Virus record (IMG/VR): IMGVR_UViG_3300047673_000550
Location: 1 to 39,170 of that record
Strand: one strand, 5' to 3'
Origin: a virus
Length of the DNA: 39,170 bases
The notes under the pieces are model-generated. The model saw nothing but the letters and a program-made list of their open reading frames with translations, was not told the origin of the DNA and ran no database searches. Each line of letters begins with the position of its first letter. Within the stretch, counting starts at the first letter, position 1. A program made the position numbers and the translations under genes. Below are positions 1,310 through 39,170 of the stretch, piece after piece.

Positions 1310-2500
1310 TTACCGAGCAATCTGGCGGTCAATCAAATTTTTTTCAAGTTTCATGATTTCTCCCCAGTCTGTTTGAGAGTTGATCCATCGGGCGTATGTC
1401 GATAGCAGCATCTGAATGCTATGACCTAGCTGATTGGCAATAAATGCAGGGTTCATCCCCGCCATGAGACATGCGGTAGCGTAGGTGTGGCGGCAGTTAT
1501 ATTGTCGCCGTGAGCGAATGCCCAATTCGGTCAGCGCAGCCTGGAAGTGTTTGTCGGTCACACTCGATTGTTGAATGAACTCGAAATTCTTGGTTGGAGG
1601 GAATACATAGGGCGATTCGGCGCGTTTACGACGGCTCTGCAGGGCGCGTTGTTGCGCCTCCAGCTCTGCCTGCTCGAGGGCGTGCAGCGCGCGGCTATTG
1701 AGCATGACCTGTCGCACGTTCCGGGTTTTGGTGCGCTCCTCAATCTTGTAGTCCGCGACGATCCGACACACGTTGACCAGGCGCTTTTCCTTATCGACCT
1801 CTTCCCAGCGCAGCGCTGCGATCTCGCTGGGGCGCATGCCGGTGTAGAAGGCGAACTCGAAGTACGCCGCGTAGATCCGCATCGAATGGGTGAGCGTCTT
1901 ATATAGGTGGCCGATGATTTGGTTAGCCTCCCCAACCGTGAACGGATCGATCGGCTTTTTGGCCTTTACCGGCAGCTCGATGGACTCCACCGGGTTACGG
2001 TTGATCAAGCCGTCTCTCACTGCGGTACCGAACACTGTGGTCAGGCGCTGGATCGCCGCGCGCTTCACGCCCGGCGTCGGCCATTCGGTATTGGCCACCA
2101 CCTTGCGCAGCATCACCGATGTGATGCTGTCGATGGGCAGCATTGCCAGATACGGCATCCAGTACAGATTGAGCGAGCCGAGGTAGTTCTTGCGTGTCCC
2201 GGCCACGATCTCGCGACTGTTGAGCCACTCCTGGGCGTACTCCCCGAAACGGGGAGTCGCTGAGTAGTTGGCATAGGTGGAGTTGGGGAACAGTTCGGCA
2301 TAGCGCTGATCATCCAGCACGCCGTGCTTGATCAGGCTGGTTACGTTAGAGCGTAAGTCGGCGGCAGCCTTAATCCCCTTCGGCGTTTGGGGATAGGGGA
2401 GGGTTTCGCAACGGCGTTGCCCGTTCCAGGTGAAGCGAATGCGGATGGACTGTCCAGCAAATTCAACTCCGGTGGGCAATCCCATTGGCTCTCGAGCCAT
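1310..2500 (-). CDS. int: Phage integrase, tyrosine recombinase
   Basis: A 396-residue tyrosine recombinase that would catalyse prophage integration and, with the excisionase, excision. The N-terminus (about 1-75) matches the arm-type DNA-binding domain of the DUF3596 group (GVEFAGQSIRIRFTWNGQRR). A SAM-like core-binding domain follows at about 83-180, and the catalytic domain at about 185-390. Visible catalytic residues are R223 (TGMRPSE), K258 (RTKTRN), R337 (YNCRHTYAT), H360 (QLGHS) and Y369 (STYARW). The first position of the HxxR box is Tyr334, common in this subgroup. The ATG has AAGGAG 9 bases upstream. The start lies inside the excisionase-like gene. It is the last gene of the leftward operon, next to the presumed attachment region. 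Confidence 0.95.
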   Translation of the reverse strand: MAREPMGLPTGVEFAGQSIRIRFTWNGQRRCETLPYPQTPKGIKAAADLRSNVTSLIKHGVLDDQRYAELFPNSTYANYSATPRFGEYAQEWLNSREIVAGTRKNYLGSLNLYWMPYLAMLPIDSITSVMLRKVVANTEWPTPGVKRAAIQRLTTVFGTAVRDGLINRNPVESIELPVKAKKPIDPFTVGEANQIIGHLYKTLTHSMRIYAAYFEFAFYTGMRPSEIAALRWEEVDKEKRLVNVCRIVADYKIEERTKTRNVRQVMLNSRALHALEQAELEAQQRALQSRRKRAESPYVFPPTKNFEFIQQSSVTDKHFQAALTELGIRSRRQYNCRHTYATACLMAGMNPAFIANQLGHSIQMLLSTYARWINSQTDWGEIMKLEKNLIDRQIAR

Positions 2501-33016: not shown

Positions 33017-33540
33017 TACCTGCGCCTTATCGGCTGCTTGGCAAGGTGGTGCTGCTGATCGCCTTGGTCGGCATATCCGTCGCCATTACCTGGCAGGTGC
33101 AGGGCTGGCGCTACGGTAGTCGCCTCAGCGAGCAGTCCCGGCAGCACACCGAAACCCTCAATCAGTTGGCCCAAGCCACGGCCGCGCAACAGCGTGTCGA
33201 GCAGGACAAGCGCCTCGCACTCGAGCAGCGTCTGGCGACCAGCGAACAAACCCATTACCGAGCCTTGAGCGATGCCCAACGTGATCAAGGTCGCCTGCGC
33301 GACCGCCTTGCCACTGCTGATCTGCGCCTGTCAGTCCTACTCGACGCCACCACCGGGGCCGGCAACGGATCGTTGTCAGCCACCACCGCCACCGGCGGCG
33401 TGGTTCATGACCCCACAAGAGCCGAACTTGACCCAGCGCATGCTCAACGAATTATCGGCGTCACCGATGACGGCGACCGGGGGCTGATTGCCCTCGCGGC
33501 CTGTCAGGCATACGCCAAAGCAGTCTCAACACCGAAGTGA
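32998..33540 (+). CDS. Rz: Inner-membrane spanin Rz
   Basis: A 180-residue protein. One N-terminal membrane helix at about 16-34 (KVVLLIALVGISVAITWQV) is followed by a long coiled coil (about 45-125, SRQHTETLNQLAQATAAQQR, QGRLRDRLATADLRLSVLL) and a C-terminal region ending CQAYAKAVSTPK. This is the i-spanin layout. With Rz1 it bridges the envelope and fuses the membranes in the last step of lysis. The start is ATG at 32998; the earlier in-frame region lies inside the endolysin gene. Rz1 is nested in another frame. Confidence 0.88.
   Translation: MRLCDLIPAPYRLLGKVVLLIALVGISVAITWQVQGWRYGSRLSEQSRQHTETLNQLAQATAAQQRVEQDKRLALEQRLATSEQTHYRALSDAQRDQGRLRDRLATADLRLSVLLDATTGAGNGSLSATTATGGVVHDPTRAELDPAHAQRIIGVTDDGDRGLIALAACQAYAKAVSTPK
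33272..33487 (+). CDS. Rz1: Outer-membrane spanin Rz1 lipoprotein nested in Rz
   Basis: A 71-residue protein in the +1 frame wholly inside Rz. MPNVIKVACATALPLLICAC is a lipoprotein signal peptide with lipobox I-C-A-C, giving lipidated Cys20. The mature part is Pro-rich (STPPPGPATDRCQPPPPPAA), the Rz1 hallmark, and ends in a short helical segment. Full embedding of Rz1 in Rz is known from lambda. Only 52 residues remain after processing, similar to known o-spanins. Confidence 0.85.
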   Translation: MPNVIKVACATALPLLICACQSYSTPPPGPATDRCQPPPPPAAWFMTPQEPNLTQRMLNELSASPMTATGG

Positions 33541-33657
33541 AAAAGAGCGGCCGGTCCGGATGCGTCAACATCCAGATCGACCGCCGTCCCTGCAGATGGT
33601 CCCTGCAAGTCCAGCCTAGGCTCTTGCTCCGTGCACAAAGCGCGGCGAGCCTAGCAC

Positions 33658-33673
33658 CTGTTTATTCATACAG
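33658..33673. promoter_or_regulatory. LexA box upstream of the methylase gene
   Basis: CTGTTTATTCATACAG is an exact CTGT-N8-ACAG LexA operator with an AT-rich centre, 17 bp before the methylase ATG. The rest of the gap 33541-33657 has an imperfect hairpin (CTAGGCTC / GAGCCTAG) that may end the late operon. Confidence 0.85.
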
Positions 33674-33690
33674 TAAAGGTCTTGCTTTCA

Positions 33691-34485
33691 ATGTCTACAC
33701 CCATCATCCCTTGGATGGGCGGCAAACGCCGCCTGGCCGACCGCCTCATTCCGCTTTTTCCGCCACACGAATGCTACGTCGAAGTCTTTGCCGGCGGTGC
33801 CGCGCTCTACTTCATGAAGCCCCAGCCATCGCCGGTCGAAGTCCTCAACGACATCAATGGCGACCTGGTCACGCTTTACCGCGTCGTGCAGAACCACCTC
33901 GAAGAGTTCGTGCGCCAGTTCAAATGGGCGCTCAGCTCGCGACAAGTGTTCGAATGGCAGAAAATGACCCGCCCCGAAACCCTCACCGACATCCAGCGCG
34001 CCGCCCGATTCTTCTACCTGCAGCACCATGCCTTCGCCGGTAAGGTCTCCGGTCAGACGTTCGGCACCGCGACCACTGCACCGGCCATCAACCTGCTGCG
34101 GATCGAGGAAAACCTCTCGGCCGCATGGCAGCGCCTGTCCGGCACCTACGTCGAAAACCTCCCTTGGCTTGAATGCGCTGAACGCTACGACCGTGCCCAC
34201 ACCTTCCATTACATGGACCCGCCTTACTGGCAGACCGCCGGCTACGGCGTGGACTTTCCGTTCGAGAACTACGAACGGATGGCAGACTTCATGCGCCGCT
34301 GCAAAGGCAAGGTGATGGTCAGCATTAACGATCATCCCGATATCCGCCATGTATTCGAAGGCTTCCACTTTGAGACTCTGGACATCCGCTACACCACGAC
34401 CAATCAGCGACAGGGTAAGGCCGAAATCAGTGGTGAGCTATTGATAATGAACTGGGAGCCAGTTGTTTTTGGGCAGCTCTTTTAA
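33691..34485 (+). CDS. D12-class DNA adenine methyltransferase (Dam-like)
   Basis: A 264-residue N6-adenine methyltransferase. PWMGGKRRLAD (7-17) is the AdoMet-binding motif X. YVEVFAGGAALYF (29-41) is motif I, and HYMDPPYWQ (173-181) is the catalytic motif IV DPPY. VLNDINGDLVTLYRVV (51-66) is also typical of the D12 family. It would transfer a methyl group to adenine, possibly in GATC. With no restriction enzyme next to it, it is an orphan methylase. The LexA box upstream places it under SOS control. ATG 33691 is chosen; TTG 33682 is possible but has no proper spacing. Confidence 0.92.
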   Translation: MSTPIIPWMGGKRRLADRLIPLFPPHECYVEVFAGGAALYFMKPQPSPVEVLNDINGDLVTLYRVVQNHLEEFVRQFKWALSSRQVFEWQKMTRPETLTDIQRAARFFYLQHHAFAGKVSGQTFGTATTAPAINLLRIEENLSAAWQRLSGTYVENLPWLECAERYDRAHTFHYMDPPYWQTAGYGVDFPFENYERMADFMRRCKGKVMVSINDHPDIRHVFEGFHFETLDIRYTTTNQRQGKAEISGELLIMNWEPVVFGQLF

Positions 34486-34797
34486 TCACCAAAGCTGAAG
34501 GTTGCAATACAAGGTGATCAGCAGGTTTATAAGTCGAATGGTTTCGATGTAAGCGGTGATTAATAGAGTGGCAGTCATTAATTTTTCTCGCAGGCACACG
34601 TCGCTTCGTTCGGCGAGGTGGCGTGTGTTAGTTTTGGGAGGATGACAGGGGGGTGAACATACCGCCTGCGCAATAAGTGTGTCAATTAATCGAAGGAATT
34701 TATTTTTTATTGCTGTGTCGAGTAATACTGTAATACCACGTGCTGGTGTGAAGCATGGGGGGCTTCTTTGTTAGTCTCTGTGAAGGCGACTCAATAC

Positions 34798-35053
34798 GTA
34801 GGTACGTAGGTACTTAGGTACTTAGGTACTTAGGTACTTAGGTGCGTAGGTACGTAGGTGCGCAGGTACGTAATTGGCGAGCTAGCCAAATGACGAAATA
34901 GCGAAATAGCGAAATAACGAAATAACGAAATAACGAAATAAAGAGATAAAGAGATAAAGAGATAAAGAAATAAAGAAATAAAGAAGTGGTAAGTTGGCAA
35001 TGTGGCAATGTGGAAAAGTAGCGAAGTAGGAGAGCAGAGGCGTGGCAAGGTCA
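34798..35053. repeat. Octanucleotide-periodic tandem array
   Basis: Nine units of GTAGGTAC/TTAGGTAC type fill 34798-34869. After three diverged octamers comes a second family: CGAAATAG x2, CGAAATAA x4, AGAGATAA x3 and AGAAATAA x2 (34894-34981). Weaker units (CAATGTGG x2, CGAAGTAG) follow to about 35053. The 8-bp phase is kept across all of them, about 32 units. The array lies in the 595-bp space between the convergent methylase and SRAP genes, in which I find no supported gene. The part before it (34486-34797) is AT-rich with one hairpin near 34595-34628. Confidence 0.85.
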
Positions 35054-35080
35054 TTTGGCAGAGCTGTTTAGAAGGGCTGC

Positions 35081-35758
35081 TTACACCTGTGCTATTAGAT
35101 TCGCTCCTTGATTGCGGATATTGCCAATCGCTCGATTCACCTTGAACCACTCAAATACGTCTGTGCTTTCACCCTGGTGCAGCACTATCTTTTCGGCGCG
35201 TTCTTTGGGGGTTGCTGGATCCAGCCATTCACGCGCCAGCTCAGGCGAAAGCGCTACCGGACGTCGGTCGTGGATATCCACCATCCCACCGGCACTGTCG
35301 GCGGTGATGATCACAAAGCCGTCATTCTCGGTGAGTTCTTTTCCCGCGACTGGGTATTGTCCAATTGCAGCGCACAGAATGGGCGCAAGATCCCGATGAC
35401 GAATCAAATACGGCTGCTTTTTAGGTCCGCCCTCATCCACCCACTCGAACCAGTTATTGATTGCGACGATAGCTCGATGCGGCCATATGGCCCGAAAGAA
35501 CGGGCCGTGTGCGACCTTTTCTACCCGAGCATTGATAGGGGCCGCACGATCTTTCGCCCAATGCGGCCGCCAACCCCAGCGCACCATGTCCGCATATAGA
35601 AATCCTTCCTCCTGGTGAAAGAGCGCAAGCTGTGTGGTGGGTGCGGCGTTGTAGCGTTCGAGCGGCAGATCCCCGACATGGTTAGCGATTGCATTGGGCA
35701 TGCTCAAGGCTGCAACAAAGTCGTGAATGCCGCTGTACTGCGAGAGTCGTCCGCACAT
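35081..35758 (-). CDS. yedK: SRAP-domain protein (YedK/HMCES)
   Basis: A 225-residue SOS-response-associated peptidase-fold protein. The active-site set is complete: Cys2 exposed after Met removal, Asn76 (INARVE), Glu105 (WFEW) and His163 (IHDRRP). Cys2 forms a stable thiazolidine link to abasic sites in single-stranded DNA and so protects them. The usual H-D-R-M-P motif reads H-D-R-R-P here. The gene is divergent from umuDC with a LexA box between them, so it should be induced by DNA damage. Its 3' end faces the octamer array. Confidence 0.93.
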   Translation of the reverse strand: MCGRLSQYSGIHDFVAALSMPNAIANHVGDLPLERYNAAPTTQLALFHQEEGFLYADMVRWGWRPHWAKDRAAPINARVEKVAHGPFFRAIWPHRAIVAINNWFEWVDEGGPKKQPYLIRHRDLAPILCAAIGQYPVAGKELTENDGFVIITADSAGGMVDIHDRRPVALSPELAREWLDPATPKERAEKIVLHQGESTDVFEWFKVNRAIGNIRNQGANLIAQV

Positions 35759-35853: not shown

Positions 35854-36279
35854 ATGAGTTACTCAATTCTAGGCCTCATCAGTGAGGGCGGTTCGAAGGT
35901 ACCGCTGTGTCTTTTCCGCGTCCCGGCCGGGTTCCCCTCGCCGGCAGCGGATCACATCGAAGCGCAGATCTCGTTGGATGAGGTGCTGAACATTCGTGCG
36001 CCACATGTCTACTTGGTGTCGCTCACCGGTGAAAGCATGCAGGGCGCCGGGATATATGAGGGAGACCTTGCCATTGTCGACCGATCAATTGAGCCCGCCC
36101 ACGGCCACATCGTCATCGCGCTCCTGAACAATGAACCCGTCTGCAAGCGCCTGTGCCTTCGCGGTCGAGAAGTCATCCTGATGTCGGAAAACCCAAAGTT
36201 TCCGCCACGGTACGTCCTTGAAGGTGACGAACTGGCGATCTGGGGTGTGATAACCAGCAGCGTGCGCAGCCATGTCTAG
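35854..36279 (+). CDS. umuD: UmuD-type polymerase V accessory protein
   Basis: A 141-residue S24 protein of UmuD length. Predicted self-cleavage is at Ala25-Gly26 (RVPAGFPSP), where E. coli has Cys24-Gly25. The nucleophile is Ser61 (TGESMQG) and the base Lys98 (PVCKRL). After RecA-stimulated cleavage UmuD' dimers join UmuC to form polymerase V. The gene overlaps umuC by 8 bases. The start is ATG at 35854, after the LexA box. Confidence 0.95.
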   Translation: MSYSILGLISEGGSKVPLCLFRVPAGFPSPAADHIEAQISLDEVLNIRAPHVYLVSLTGESMQGAGIYEGDLAIVDRSIEPAHGHIVIALLNNEPVCKRLCLRGREVILMSENPKFPPRYVLEGDELAIWGVITSSVRSHV

Positions 36280-37549
36280 GGCGCTGCCGATATTCGGCCT
36301 GATCGATTGCAACAGCTTCTACGCCAGTTGTGAACGCGTGTTCCGACCAGACCTCGCCAAAGTCCCCATCGTGGTGCTGTCGAACAACGACGGCTGCGTC
36401 ATCGCCCGAAGCTACGACGCCAAGCCCTACGTGAAAATGGGCGAACCGTACTTCCAGATCAAACACAAACTCAAGCAACACGGCATTGTCCCGTTCTCCT
36501 CGAACTACGCGCTGTACGGTGACATGAGCGAACGTGTCATGACCTTGATCGAGTCGATGGTACCGGCCGTCGAGGTCTACAGCATCGACGAAGCCTTCGT
36601 CGACCTCACCGGCATCAACGACGTGGACGGCCTCGGCCGCAAGATTCGCAGCCAAGTGCTTCGCTGCACGGGCATCCCGGTCGGCGTTGGTATTGCTCAC
36701 ACCAAAACCCTGGCCAAGCTGGCCAACCACACCGCCAAACGCCTGCAGGCGCAAACCGGTGGCGTCGTGAACATCTGCGACCCGATCAAGCGCGACTGGG
36801 TGTTACGCAATACGGACGTGGCTGAGGTCTGGGGAGTAGGGCGGCGTATGAAGCTGCATCTGGATGGAATGGGCATCAAGACTGCGATGGATCTGGCCAA
36901 GGCAGATGCCTGGACGCTACGCAAAAACTTCAGCGTGGTAATCGAGAAAACCGCCCGAGAGCTGGCTGGCACTGCATGCCTTGAGTTGGACGAGCCAGAT
37001 CCGCCCAAGCAGGAGATCTGTTGCTGCCGGATGTTCGGCAAGCGCCTCACAGAGCTGGCACCGATCAAAGAGGCCGTCGCCACTTACGTGATGCGCGCCT
37101 CGGAAAAACTGCGGGCCCAGAACTCACTGTGTAAGAAAATCCGCGTCAGCATTCGCACCGGCATGTTCAATCCGAATGAGGTCAAGTACGCAAACGGAGT
37201 CCTCGTCGAGCTGCCATATCCCACAGATGATGTGCGTCTGCTGACAAAGGCAGCTGTCGACGCTGTCGAGCGCGTATTCCGGCCTGGATTCAAGTACAGC
37301 AAGGCAGAGGTGATGCTCGTCAACCTTTGTCAGCGTAGTGAATTCACCGAGGATCTCTTTGCCACCACGCAATCCGCCGAGGCGACGAACCTGATGACGG
37401 TGCTGGATAAGATCAACGAGAGGTGGGGCAGAGGCACCCTTCGCTCTGCGAGTGTACCGATTAGCCCCGATTGGGTAATGAGGCGCGAGATGATGAGTAA
37501 GAGCTATACGACAAAGCTTGATCAGTTGTGGACGGTAGCATGCAGCTAA
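36272..37549 (+). CDS. umuC: UmuC, translesion DNA polymerase V catalytic subunit
   Basis: A 425-residue Y-family polymerase of normal length. Catalytic acids are visible in LIDCNSFYASCE (Asp12) and YSIDEAFVDL (Asp106, Glu107). The steric-gate region FYAS, the CIARSY-like palm/fingers motif (SNNDGCVIARSYDAK) and helix-hairpin-helix part (about 185-215) are present. A C-terminal little-finger region and the RSEFTEDLF segment, which may act as a clamp-binding motif, follow. It copies past DNA lesions with low fidelity after SOS induction. Prophage-borne umuDC pairs are known. Confidence 0.95.
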   Translation: MSRALPIFGLIDCNSFYASCERVFRPDLAKVPIVVLSNNDGCVIARSYDAKPYVKMGEPYFQIKHKLKQHGIVPFSSNYALYGDMSERVMTLIESMVPAVEVYSIDEAFVDLTGINDVDGLGRKIRSQVLRCTGIPVGVGIAHTKTLAKLANHTAKRLQAQTGGVVNICDPIKRDWVLRNTDVAEVWGVGRRMKLHLDGMGIKTAMDLAKADAWTLRKNFSVVIEKTARELAGTACLELDEPDPPKQEICCCRMFGKRLTELAPIKEAVATYVMRASEKLRAQNSLCKKIRVSIRTGMFNPNEVKYANGVLVELPYPTDDVRLLTKAAVDAVERVFRPGFKYSKAEVMLVNLCQRSEFTEDLFATTQSAEATNLMTVLDKINERWGRGTLRSASVPISPDWVMRREMMSKSYTTKLDQLWTVACS

Positions 37550-37679
37550 ATGGGAAGGGTATTGTTTAGTTTCGGCCCTTCTGCTTTCCTGCTGGACGAG
37601 GCATTATTCGCTGGGGACGAGAGGAACAACCCGAACGCGGTAGATAACTTTGGCACTAGAATTTTCAAGGAAGTATATT

Positions 37680-39170
37680 TTGAACAAAAAAAGCTTACTA
37701 AATGCCATCCGGATTGGCCACCGCGTTGCGGAGGACGAAAAAAATGAATTAGCGAATTATTTCGTCAAAACATCTCAATGGAATAAATTAGCAAATGGTG
37801 AAATTGACATAATTTACGGAGCGAAAGGCACAGGTAAAAGTGCGCTTTACTCCTTGCTTACAAACAACGCCCAAGATTTTCTAAATCGAAGAATTTTGTT
37901 GGTTCCAGCCGAGAATCCATTAGGGGCTTCAGCTTTTCAGGGGCTTATTGATGAGAATGCTGATAGTGAAGTAGACCTGAGTTACATCTGGAAGCTTTAT
38001 ATGCTTCAGTTGATATCCGCAGAGTTGCGAAAGGCTTCGGTTGCTAGTGATGTGGCGAACAAGCTTATTGCAGCATTGGAAGTGGCTGGCTTACTGCCTA
38101 AAACATTTACACTAGCTTCTTTGTTTGCAAGAGCAAAAAACTATATCCAGAGTTTTGCTGAGAAAGACCCGACAGAGGTAGAGTATAATCTCGGGCTGGA
38201 CCCAACTTCAGGTCTGCCGATAGCCACGAGAAAAGCCAGTTATGGACCAACTGATACGAAATCGCGCTTATCTAGTGTCCCAGTAAATGACCTACTCAGT
38301 TTTGCTAACGATGGATTGGCTGAAGTTTCACTTCAGGTATGGTTGCTTTTTGATCGACTCGACGTTTCATTCTCATCTTCACCAGAGCTTGAAAAATCAG
38401 CATTGCGTGCTCTCTTTAGAGTTTATGCAGATTTAAAACCACTTGACAATATAAAGGCAAAAATTTTTGTTCGAAAGGATATATGGGAGCGGATTACAGA
38501 AGGGGGGTTTCGCGAAGCAAGCCATATTATAAAAACTGATACGATTGAGTGGGATCGCGATGGCCTACTGAATCTTGTTGTGAATCGACTTTTAAACAAT
38601 CAAGTGCTTGTTGATTATTTGAAAGTTGATAGGGGGGAGGTGGTTAGCGATTCAAGCAAGCAGGAGTTGATTATAAAAAGAATACTTCCTGATAAGGTCG
38701 ATACTGGGAAGAACCCCGATGCCTTTGACTGGATAATTTCGCGAGTACAAGACGGTACCAAGAAAACTGCACCCCGGGAATTAATTCACATGCTTGAATG
38801 CTTGATATCAAATCAAGTGAAAAAAATTGAGCAAGGAAAACCTGAGCCAGAAGCGGAAATATTATTTGATCGGGCAGTTTTCAAAGATTCGCTAACAATT
38901 GTTTCTACAGTCAGATATACACAAACACTTTGTGCGGAATATCCGGACCTGAAAAAATACACTGAACTACTGAAAGACGAAAAAGCAGAGCAAAAGGTTG
39001 AGACGTTGGCTCGGATTTGGGGGGTATCACTAGACGAGGCCCAATTATTGGCTGATAAGTTAGTTGTAGCGGGTTTCTTTGAAGCGCGTAATGAGAAGAA
39101 CATTCCTACGTACTGGGTGCCATTTTTGTATCGCGATGCTCTTGATTTGGTTCAGGGAAAAGCGGTTTAG
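37680..39170 (+). CDS. P-loop ATPase resembling the Sll1717 family
   Basis: A 496-residue ATPase. IIYGAKGTGKSALYSLL holds Walker A (about 47-54). VWLLFDRLDVSF (about 220-231) fits Walker B, and KIFVRKDIWERI (about 261-272) could supply a sensor or arginine finger. The N-terminal ANYF...W-x-K-L-x-x-G-x-x-D-I-I-Y-G pattern resembles the 'Sll1717 family' of P-loop ATPases, with unknown biochemical role. No nuclease or membrane domain is visible. The start is TTG at 37680 with AAGGAAG 6 bases upstream; TTG at 37650 is possible. Its base composition is markedly AT-rich compared with umuC, pointing to separate acquisition. The stop is at the window edge, so partners downstream are not visible. Confidence 0.8.
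   Translation: MNKKSLLNAIRIGHRVAEDEKNELANYFVKTSQWNKLANGEIDIIYGAKGTGKSALYSLLTNNAQDFLNRRILLVPAENPLGASAFQGLIDENADSEVDLSYIWKLYMLQLISAELRKASVASDVANKLIAALEVAGLLPKTFTLASLFARAKNYIQSFAEKDPTEVEYNLGLDPTSGLPIATRKASYGPTDTKSRLSSVPVNDLLSFANDGLAEVSLQVWLLFDRLDVSFSSSPELEKSALRALFRVYADLKPLDNIKAKIFVRKDIWERITEGGFREASHIIKTDTIEWDRDGLLNLVVNRLLNNQVLVDYLKVDRGEVVSDSSKQELIIKRILPDKVDTGKNPDAFDWIISRVQDGTKKTAPRELIHMLECLISNQVKKIEQGKPEPEAEILFDRAVFKDSLTIVSTVRYTQTLCAEYPDLKKYTELLKDEKAEQKVETLARIWGVSLDEAQLLADKLVVAGFFEARNEKNIPTYWVPFLYRDALDLVQGKAV

Follow-up and report, generated by a model that had tools for sequence, protein, structure and literature searches.

Copies of a centromere elsewhere in the cell cause partition incompatibility. 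Like the repeats described here, the centromeres parH of TP228 (ParF/ParG) and parS of pSM19035 (omega) consist of tandem short boxes, in a 4+4-bp layout in the former and in 7-bp units in the latter. In both, the boxes lie at the promoter of the par operon, and a small ribbon-helix-helix protein whose N-terminal tail is flexible binds them cooperatively. Type Ib centromere-binding proteins are also repressors (PMC5016525), and according to a citation in the same article the parC repeats of plasmid R1 express incompatibility (Dam and Gerdes 1994, cited in PMC5016525). In the integrative element SGI1, integrated mimics of the IncC parS bind the plasmid ParB, stabilise SGI1 and destabilise or expel the IncC plasmid (PMC10954446). 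Phage-plasmids are reported to turn into integrated prophages, losing plasmid genes (PMC11652158). Accounts of competition between integrated prophages and phage-plasmids have mostly centred on repressors, exclusion proteins and nuclease defence.

Here we compare with these systems an array of ~30 octamer units in the window, that is, the whole stretch of 39,170 nucleotides analysed (IMG/VR record IMGVR_UViG_3300047673_000550).

Prophage setting of the array

The window is a Pseudomonas-type prophage record, with integrase, terminase, portal and tail genes followed by lysis genes, a methyltransferase gene and the array. Since it encodes a tyrosine integrase, we take it to be an integrating prophage. 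The array sits near the lysis genes, between a D12 methyltransferase gene and a convergent SRAP/HMCES gene. The flanking genes had been called convergent in the original prediction, and their strands agree with this; the SOS neighbourhood that it proposed is borne out by SRAP, UmuD and UmuC. The features are:

1310-2500, minus strand: phage tyrosine integrase (Pfam PF00589)
33682-34485, plus strand: D12-class N6-adenine DNA methyltransferase, left neighbour of the array, start codon uncertain (Pfam PF02086, E 1.2e-23)
34750-34766, plus strand: weak terminator-like hairpin (5 pairs) between the methyltransferase gene and the array
34795-34872, no strand: class 2 octamer block of ~10 units, ACGTAGGT / ACTTAGGT / GCGTAGGT (TRF; par-box score -0.54)
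34873-34884, no strand: linker between the two blocks, with weak periodicity (lag-8 identity down to 0.38 nearby)
34885-34991, plus strand: main block, par-box-like, TAGCGAAA x2, TAACGAAA x3, TAAAGAGA x3 and TAAAGAAA x2 (TRF; par-trained score 5.35)
34992-35036, plus strand: degenerate octamers in the main-block register, GCAATGTG x2, GAAAAGTA, GCGAAGTA and further units (TRF and lag-8 identity)
35081-35758, minus strand: SRAP/HMCES-type gene, right neighbour, 3' end towards the array (Pfam PF02586, E 6.4e-43)
35854-36279, plus strand: UmuD-like gene
36272-37549, plus strand: UmuC-like gene

No promoter-like sites were found inside the window array. The ORFs at 33537-34043 and 34028-34315 were rejected as genes, since they read the methyltransferase gene in other frames; anchoring on them nevertheless retrieved the correct loci. 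A toxin-antitoxin-like pair (HI1420-type antidote, Gp49-like) lies at the left end of the prophage (401-1056), and 37650-39170, up to the record end, encodes a 506-aa protein that weakly matches an ORC-CDC6-like ATPase (PHROG 14159).

Period and register of the octamers

Over 34798-35053, identity at lag 8 was 0.762, compared with 0.299 ± 0.026 (maximum 0.391) in 1000 dinucleotide shuffles. It was also high at lags 16, 24 and 32, and at most 0.41 at every other lag. TRF reported three tracts of period 8: 34795-34872 (TACGTAGG, 9.8 copies), 34888-34985 (AAATAACG, 12.2 copies) and 34995-35013 (TGGCAATG, 2.4 copies). The units ACGAAATA, GCGAAATA, AAGAGATA, AAGAAATA, GCAATGTG and GCGAAGTA share a common register across ~34885-35036. 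Between the GTAGGTAC block, which ends at 34872, and this second part, lag-8 identity drops to 0.38 (34861-34876), and when both parts are anchored on their RCG steps the GTAGGTAC block is 1 bp off register (34796 versus 34893). The dip and the offset mean that a single register is established for the second part (34885-35036) only. Thus, of the ~32 octamers in unbroken 8-bp register that had been predicted, the period and a count of ~30 units stand, and a single register is supported within 34885-35036.

The units are contiguous, with no unique spacers between repeats, so a CRISPR array was rejected, as the original prediction had it. There was no match to a structured RNA family in Rfam at gathering thresholds, and readings of the array as a promoter or a terminator were unsupported. 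The 106-aa ORF over the array (34830-35150, minus strand) has no Pfam match, and a protein-coding repeat was likewise rejected. A Rho-type spacing of C residues in the transcript was dropped after inspection by eye, since YC steps are absent from several of the unit families.

Recurrence at one site and turnover between relatives

We collected loci anchored on SRAP from 80 genome contigs and 80 viral contigs and scanned them for exact tandem repeats. In these 160 loci and the window, all exact octamer runs lay within ~450 bp of the SRAP 3' end. Counting exact runs of 2.5 copies in the 1.23 Mb around SRAP, period 8 occurred 22 times, always at this site, and periods 7 and 9 three times each. 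Anchoring on the methyltransferase side retrieved further arrays in the same intergene.

Among distinct intergenes between the methyltransferase and SRAP/UmuD, 20 of 71 have octamer arrays and 51 do not; because octamer-pattern scans had contributed seven of the 20 (L162, L254, L272, L283, L284, L297 and L299), the figure free of this bias is 13 of 64. The lag-8 score is sharply bimodal, at least 0.85 for the arrays (n = 20) and at most 0.55 for the rest (n = 51), and no period other than 8 was recurrent at the site in the 71 intergenes. The array units vary widely (TTATTTCG, TCATTGCG/TCATTACG, TTAATTCT, AATTGCGT, CTTATGTA, TTGAAGCG, TTTAACGN and others). Where relatives lacking an array have a spacer of similar length, it contains other sequence.

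Other repeats were seen in these loci. TAGGGCTATGGGTGTATA elements recur in 2-4 copies in the intergenes of L001, L081, L143, L247, L248, L051 and L205, and array-free relatives have paired CTGTTWATTACACGAAAAGTGGAAAT elements with ~110 bp between them. Hexamer arrays (TTTCGG, TGCGGT) occur elsewhere in two SRAP-bearing loci (L053 2376-2412 and L153 5629-5665).

Related pairs with flanks 88-98% identical differ in copy number or in unit family. L017 and L209 are 98% identical over the first 300 columns, and their arrays differ by gaps of 56 bp and 8 bp, which upholds the predicted variation in copy number between close relatives. Between L205 and L297, with flanks 96% identical, the array switches from ACGAATTA/ACGAAATA to AAGAAACA/AAGAAATA, and the arrays of L246 and L283 are almost wholly different between flanks that are 88% identical. 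The arrays therefore grow and shrink by whole 8-bp units, with drift, in line with the repeated slippage that had been suggested. Of templated expansion, the other route suggested, no sign was seen; slippage with selection or recombination suffices. Variability per position in the arrays did not track that in par sites (Spearman 0.19), which gives no support to purifying selection on the box positions.

Octamer boxes at partition loci

A scan of viral contigs for ACGNAWTN repeats led to Pseudomonas phages with a ParA gene (Pfam CbiA and AAA_31), in which octamer blocks flank the parA promoter and reappear before the next gene. A profile of this ParA (family A1) was used to fetch relatives independently of the repeats, and the set was supplemented with named plasmids and phages. 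Lag-8 repeats were present upstream of the ParF-like parA gene at 27 of 38 loci of phage-plasmids and plasmids, and the same 38 regions had zero repeats at lags 5-7, 9 or 10. The box differs from one par locus to another (ACGAATTA, AAAGAATT, ACGCTATA, TCATTGCG, TTAGCTAT and others).

The gene after parA encodes a protein of ~80-110 residues whose tail is basic and whose C-terminal part is a ribbon-helix-helix. The profile of this protein matches 2kel, 9kkd and ParG (1p94), three members match Pfam RHH_10, and a structure model (helices 52-64 and 69-83) matches mostly ribbon-helix-helix folds, ParG among them. The E-values are individually weak and the matches concordant. By architecture, these ParA/ribbon-helix-helix loci are type Ib par systems.

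The par-bearing Pseudomonas phages share with the array prophage family lysis genes and a methyltransferase that is 93-94% identical. As they also encode a tyrosine recombinase of 430-500 residues, the plasmid lifestyle is unproven for each metagenomic record; it is backed by pPAC1.3b, a named, complete circular phage-plasmid with the same gene mix, including capsid and tail genes and an octamer-box par locus. On a conjugative plasmid of Pseudomonas sp. HR96 (L387 4575-8182), umuD, umuC, SRAP, boxes, parA and parG follow one another. SRAP is thus right at the par locus, as it is at the prophage arrays, and is ~40% identical to that of the window. The 'Rep' label of a 329-aa gene in the par-bearing phages had no Pfam support and was left out of the evidence.

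In the par-bearing Pseudomonas phages the same boxes also stand in successive intergenes of small-gene operons (L256 5565-6472, L311 6577-7471 and L170 1497-1525), and their ParG-like protein may be a wider regulator. An apparently cyanobacterial contig has CGAAATAA x4 (L164 3741-3771), and Nostoc plasmids (hits H25 and H27) have a ParA from the same family; the octamer box code may extend past Proteobacteria. On one viral contig (L313 6414-6955), TTGACGCA x18.6 is interspersed with 7-bp repeats (TTGACGC), putting periods 7 and 8 next to each other.

Comparison of array units with par boxes

With a 12-base match, 16 of 50 unit families were common to arrays and par sites, compared with a mean of 2.25 and a maximum of 7 after shuffling. 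Because the first par loci had come from the octamer-pattern scan, which makes the comparison circular, the tests were rerun without any locus that the pattern had contributed; 10 of 31 families were then shared, against maxima of 5 for shuffled units and 5 for control DNA from the same loci. Families of the window main block match par sites of Pseudomonas phage-plasmids (ACGAAATA), of L343 (AGCGAAAT), and of L332, Aeromonas pWP8 and Aliivibrio phage H905 (AAAGAAAT).

EM training on par tracts yielded a box model, [AT]T[AG]ACG[AC]A, that scored 2.26 over all prophage tracts, compared with 0.03 ± 0.21 for position-permuted units. We also built an independent model, with par loci found through ParA only and prophages through SRAP or methyltransferase only. 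Its consensus is T-A-A-C-G-A-A-[AT] (TAACGAAT-like), and it scored 2.01 on the prophage arrays, compared with 0.57 ± 0.23 for permuted units (maximum 1.39 of 500). A block scoring at least 3.3 in this model was present in 12 of 13 prophages, with the window main block at 5.35, and most high-scoring blocks have the same orientation. We consider it quite probable that most array blocks are par-type boxes, which is better supported than any function. The statement that the array fits no iteron pattern is thus not supported: most blocks, the window main block included, match the 8-bp boxes of ParA/ParG-type par operons.

About one-third of the blocks do not fit the par-box consensus, including the window GTAGGTAC block (34795-34872; score -0.54). 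The non-fitting blocks (GTAGGTAC, CTTATGTA, GTGCACAA and GTACAAAA) seem to form a second class, of GT(A/G)C type. The GTAGGTAC family is also present in L254 and L161. No par locus using the GTAGGTAC/CTTATGTA families was found in the viral-contig scan, and 249 scanned Pseudomonas genomes gave a single array of these families, in genome G046 (L393 8359-8622; contig C1, ~897.4-897.6 kb). There, ~28 octamers (TGGGTACC, TACGCAGG and GTAGGTAC) drift in one tract right behind the tyrosine integrase gene of another integrated element, which lacks par genes; this is a third context for such arrays. At the distant par locus L373 the boxes are of GTAC type and irregularly spaced, a lead at most. Some unit families may have arisen by slippage and drift rather than by capture of par specificities.

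Absence of matching partition genes

Searches of the window for ParA, ParG and RHH_1 gave no match. Neither A1 nor A2 (the ParA/ParG family) matched in 18 array-bearing phage records, while three par-bearing phages, used as positive controls, were matched. As many viral records are fragments, absence of par is firm solely for the more complete ones. ParA of family A1 was absent from three array-bearing host genomes; it occurs in 8 of 399 sampled Pseudomonas genomes.

Compared with a type Ib centromere, the window array has the tandem short boxes of fixed period, and its main block, though not its GTAGGTAC block, has the box sequence of par-operon sites; neither in the window nor in the 18 array-bearing records are the boxes located at a ParA and ribbon-helix-helix operon. 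As in an SGI1-like parS mimic, an integrative element without par genes (here with an integrase) has boxes that match those of another replicon.

Discussion

We suggest that the prophage array is a par-less, multi-specific centromere mimic, or decoy, directed against competing phage-plasmids, a reading to which we give an even chance or a little less. It is suggested by boxes that lack par genes, a promoter-free array and an integrating element, and from the existence of competitors with related virions (methyltransferase 93-94% identical) together with the fast change of box family. Small ribbon-helix-helix (ParG-like) centromere-binding proteins of type Ib recognise boxes of this kind, and the array would bind the one made by a rival phage-plasmid or plasmid. 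This protein would be titrated, or the plasmid partition complex would be tied to the chromosome, and the incoming element would be destabilised by partition incompatibility. Several unit families in one array would cover several partition specificities; slippage of units with point mutation would allow rapid change in copy number and specificity, presumably under selection for the decoy effect. The array might also aid partition of the excised phage genome. More tentatively, and at rather less than an even chance, the decoy may be a fast-evolving DNA-only weapon that collects and amplifies the boxes of many rivals and so excludes phage-plasmids.

The main rival is a functionless relic of phage-plasmid ancestry or recombination, in which the par genes were lost and the boxes expand and decay by slippage. 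Conversion of phage-plasmids to integrated prophages with loss of plasmid genes is reported (PMC11652158), lysis and methyltransferase genes are common to par-bearing phages and array prophages, and the HR96 plasmid, with its umuDC-SRAP-boxes-parA-parG order, has boxes directly behind an SRAP gene ~40% identical to the window's. Yet one array often holds several box specificities, its copy number exceeds that at par loci, and long perfect runs remain, such as 13 units of AAAGAATT. Families also switch while the flanks stay 88-96% identical, where a decaying relic would be expected mostly to degrade, and we regard a relic as unlikely, if a serious contender.

An ordinary minisatellite, arising by slippage in an AT-rich spacer with the period of 8 and the par-box likeness coincidental, is already disfavoured and seems to us improbable: all 22 period-8 runs are at one spot, against three each for periods 7 and 9, and the par-trained model fits the arrays far better than permuted units. 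What speaks for a minisatellite is that indels are whole units, that a few of these loci have repeats of 4, 6 and 9 bp in or near them, and that in G046 the GTAGGTAC family has expanded next to an integrase where there are no par genes. Box binders can regulate from between the small operon genes of par-bearing phages, where the same boxes stand, and type Ib proteins double as repressors (PMC5016525); the array could on these grounds be an operator or organising site for a phage or host regulator, for instance a different ribbon-helix-helix protein, with no part in partition competition. The array is placed between convergent genes with no internal promoter-like site, the window has no RHH_1 or ParG match, and near-identical prophages have different unit families, unlike the operator of one regulator, all of which makes this reading very improbable.

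If the decoy reading is true, a par-less box array at a conserved prophage site would be a form of exclusion by DNA only, and the array would be a record of the partition specificities that are relevant. The matches between arrays and par sites yield box-protein pairs that can be tested directly, and a predicted 8-bp box code is gained for ParA/ParG-like par loci, which are widespread in plasmids and phages.

In comparison with TP228 parH and pSM19035 parS, the prophage array is not attached to a par operon or promoter, and it has more units and mixed families. The STRR-type repeats of cyanobacteria are short, tandem and intergenic, with unit variation as in the prophage arrays; they differ in being seven-bp and dispersed, with no tie to a par locus or to a fixed prophage site. 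No relevant work on octamer repeats in Pseudomonas prophages came up in literature searches, which also gave no account of prophage octamer arrays as par boxes and none for ParG with ACTC. The par locus of the Halomonas plasmid pZM3H1 has a family A1 ParA (53% identical), an 80-aa partner and predicted repeats near the promoter (PMC3606827); its putative parS is given as 7-bp imperfect inverted repeats, however, and neither octamer arrays nor par-less copies are described (PMC3606827). The closest parallel in principle is SGI1, also an integrative element with mimics of a competitor's centromere and no partition operon. SGI1 has two 22-bp inverted repeats of the ParB type (type Ia) and a helper protein, Sci (PMC10954446), whereas the boxes of the prophages are type Ib-like, 8 bp long and arrayed in tandem by the dozen, often with several families in one array, and their destabilising effect is predicted. 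The principle is therefore already known from SGI1; its type Ib, multi-family, tandem form in prophages appears to be new.
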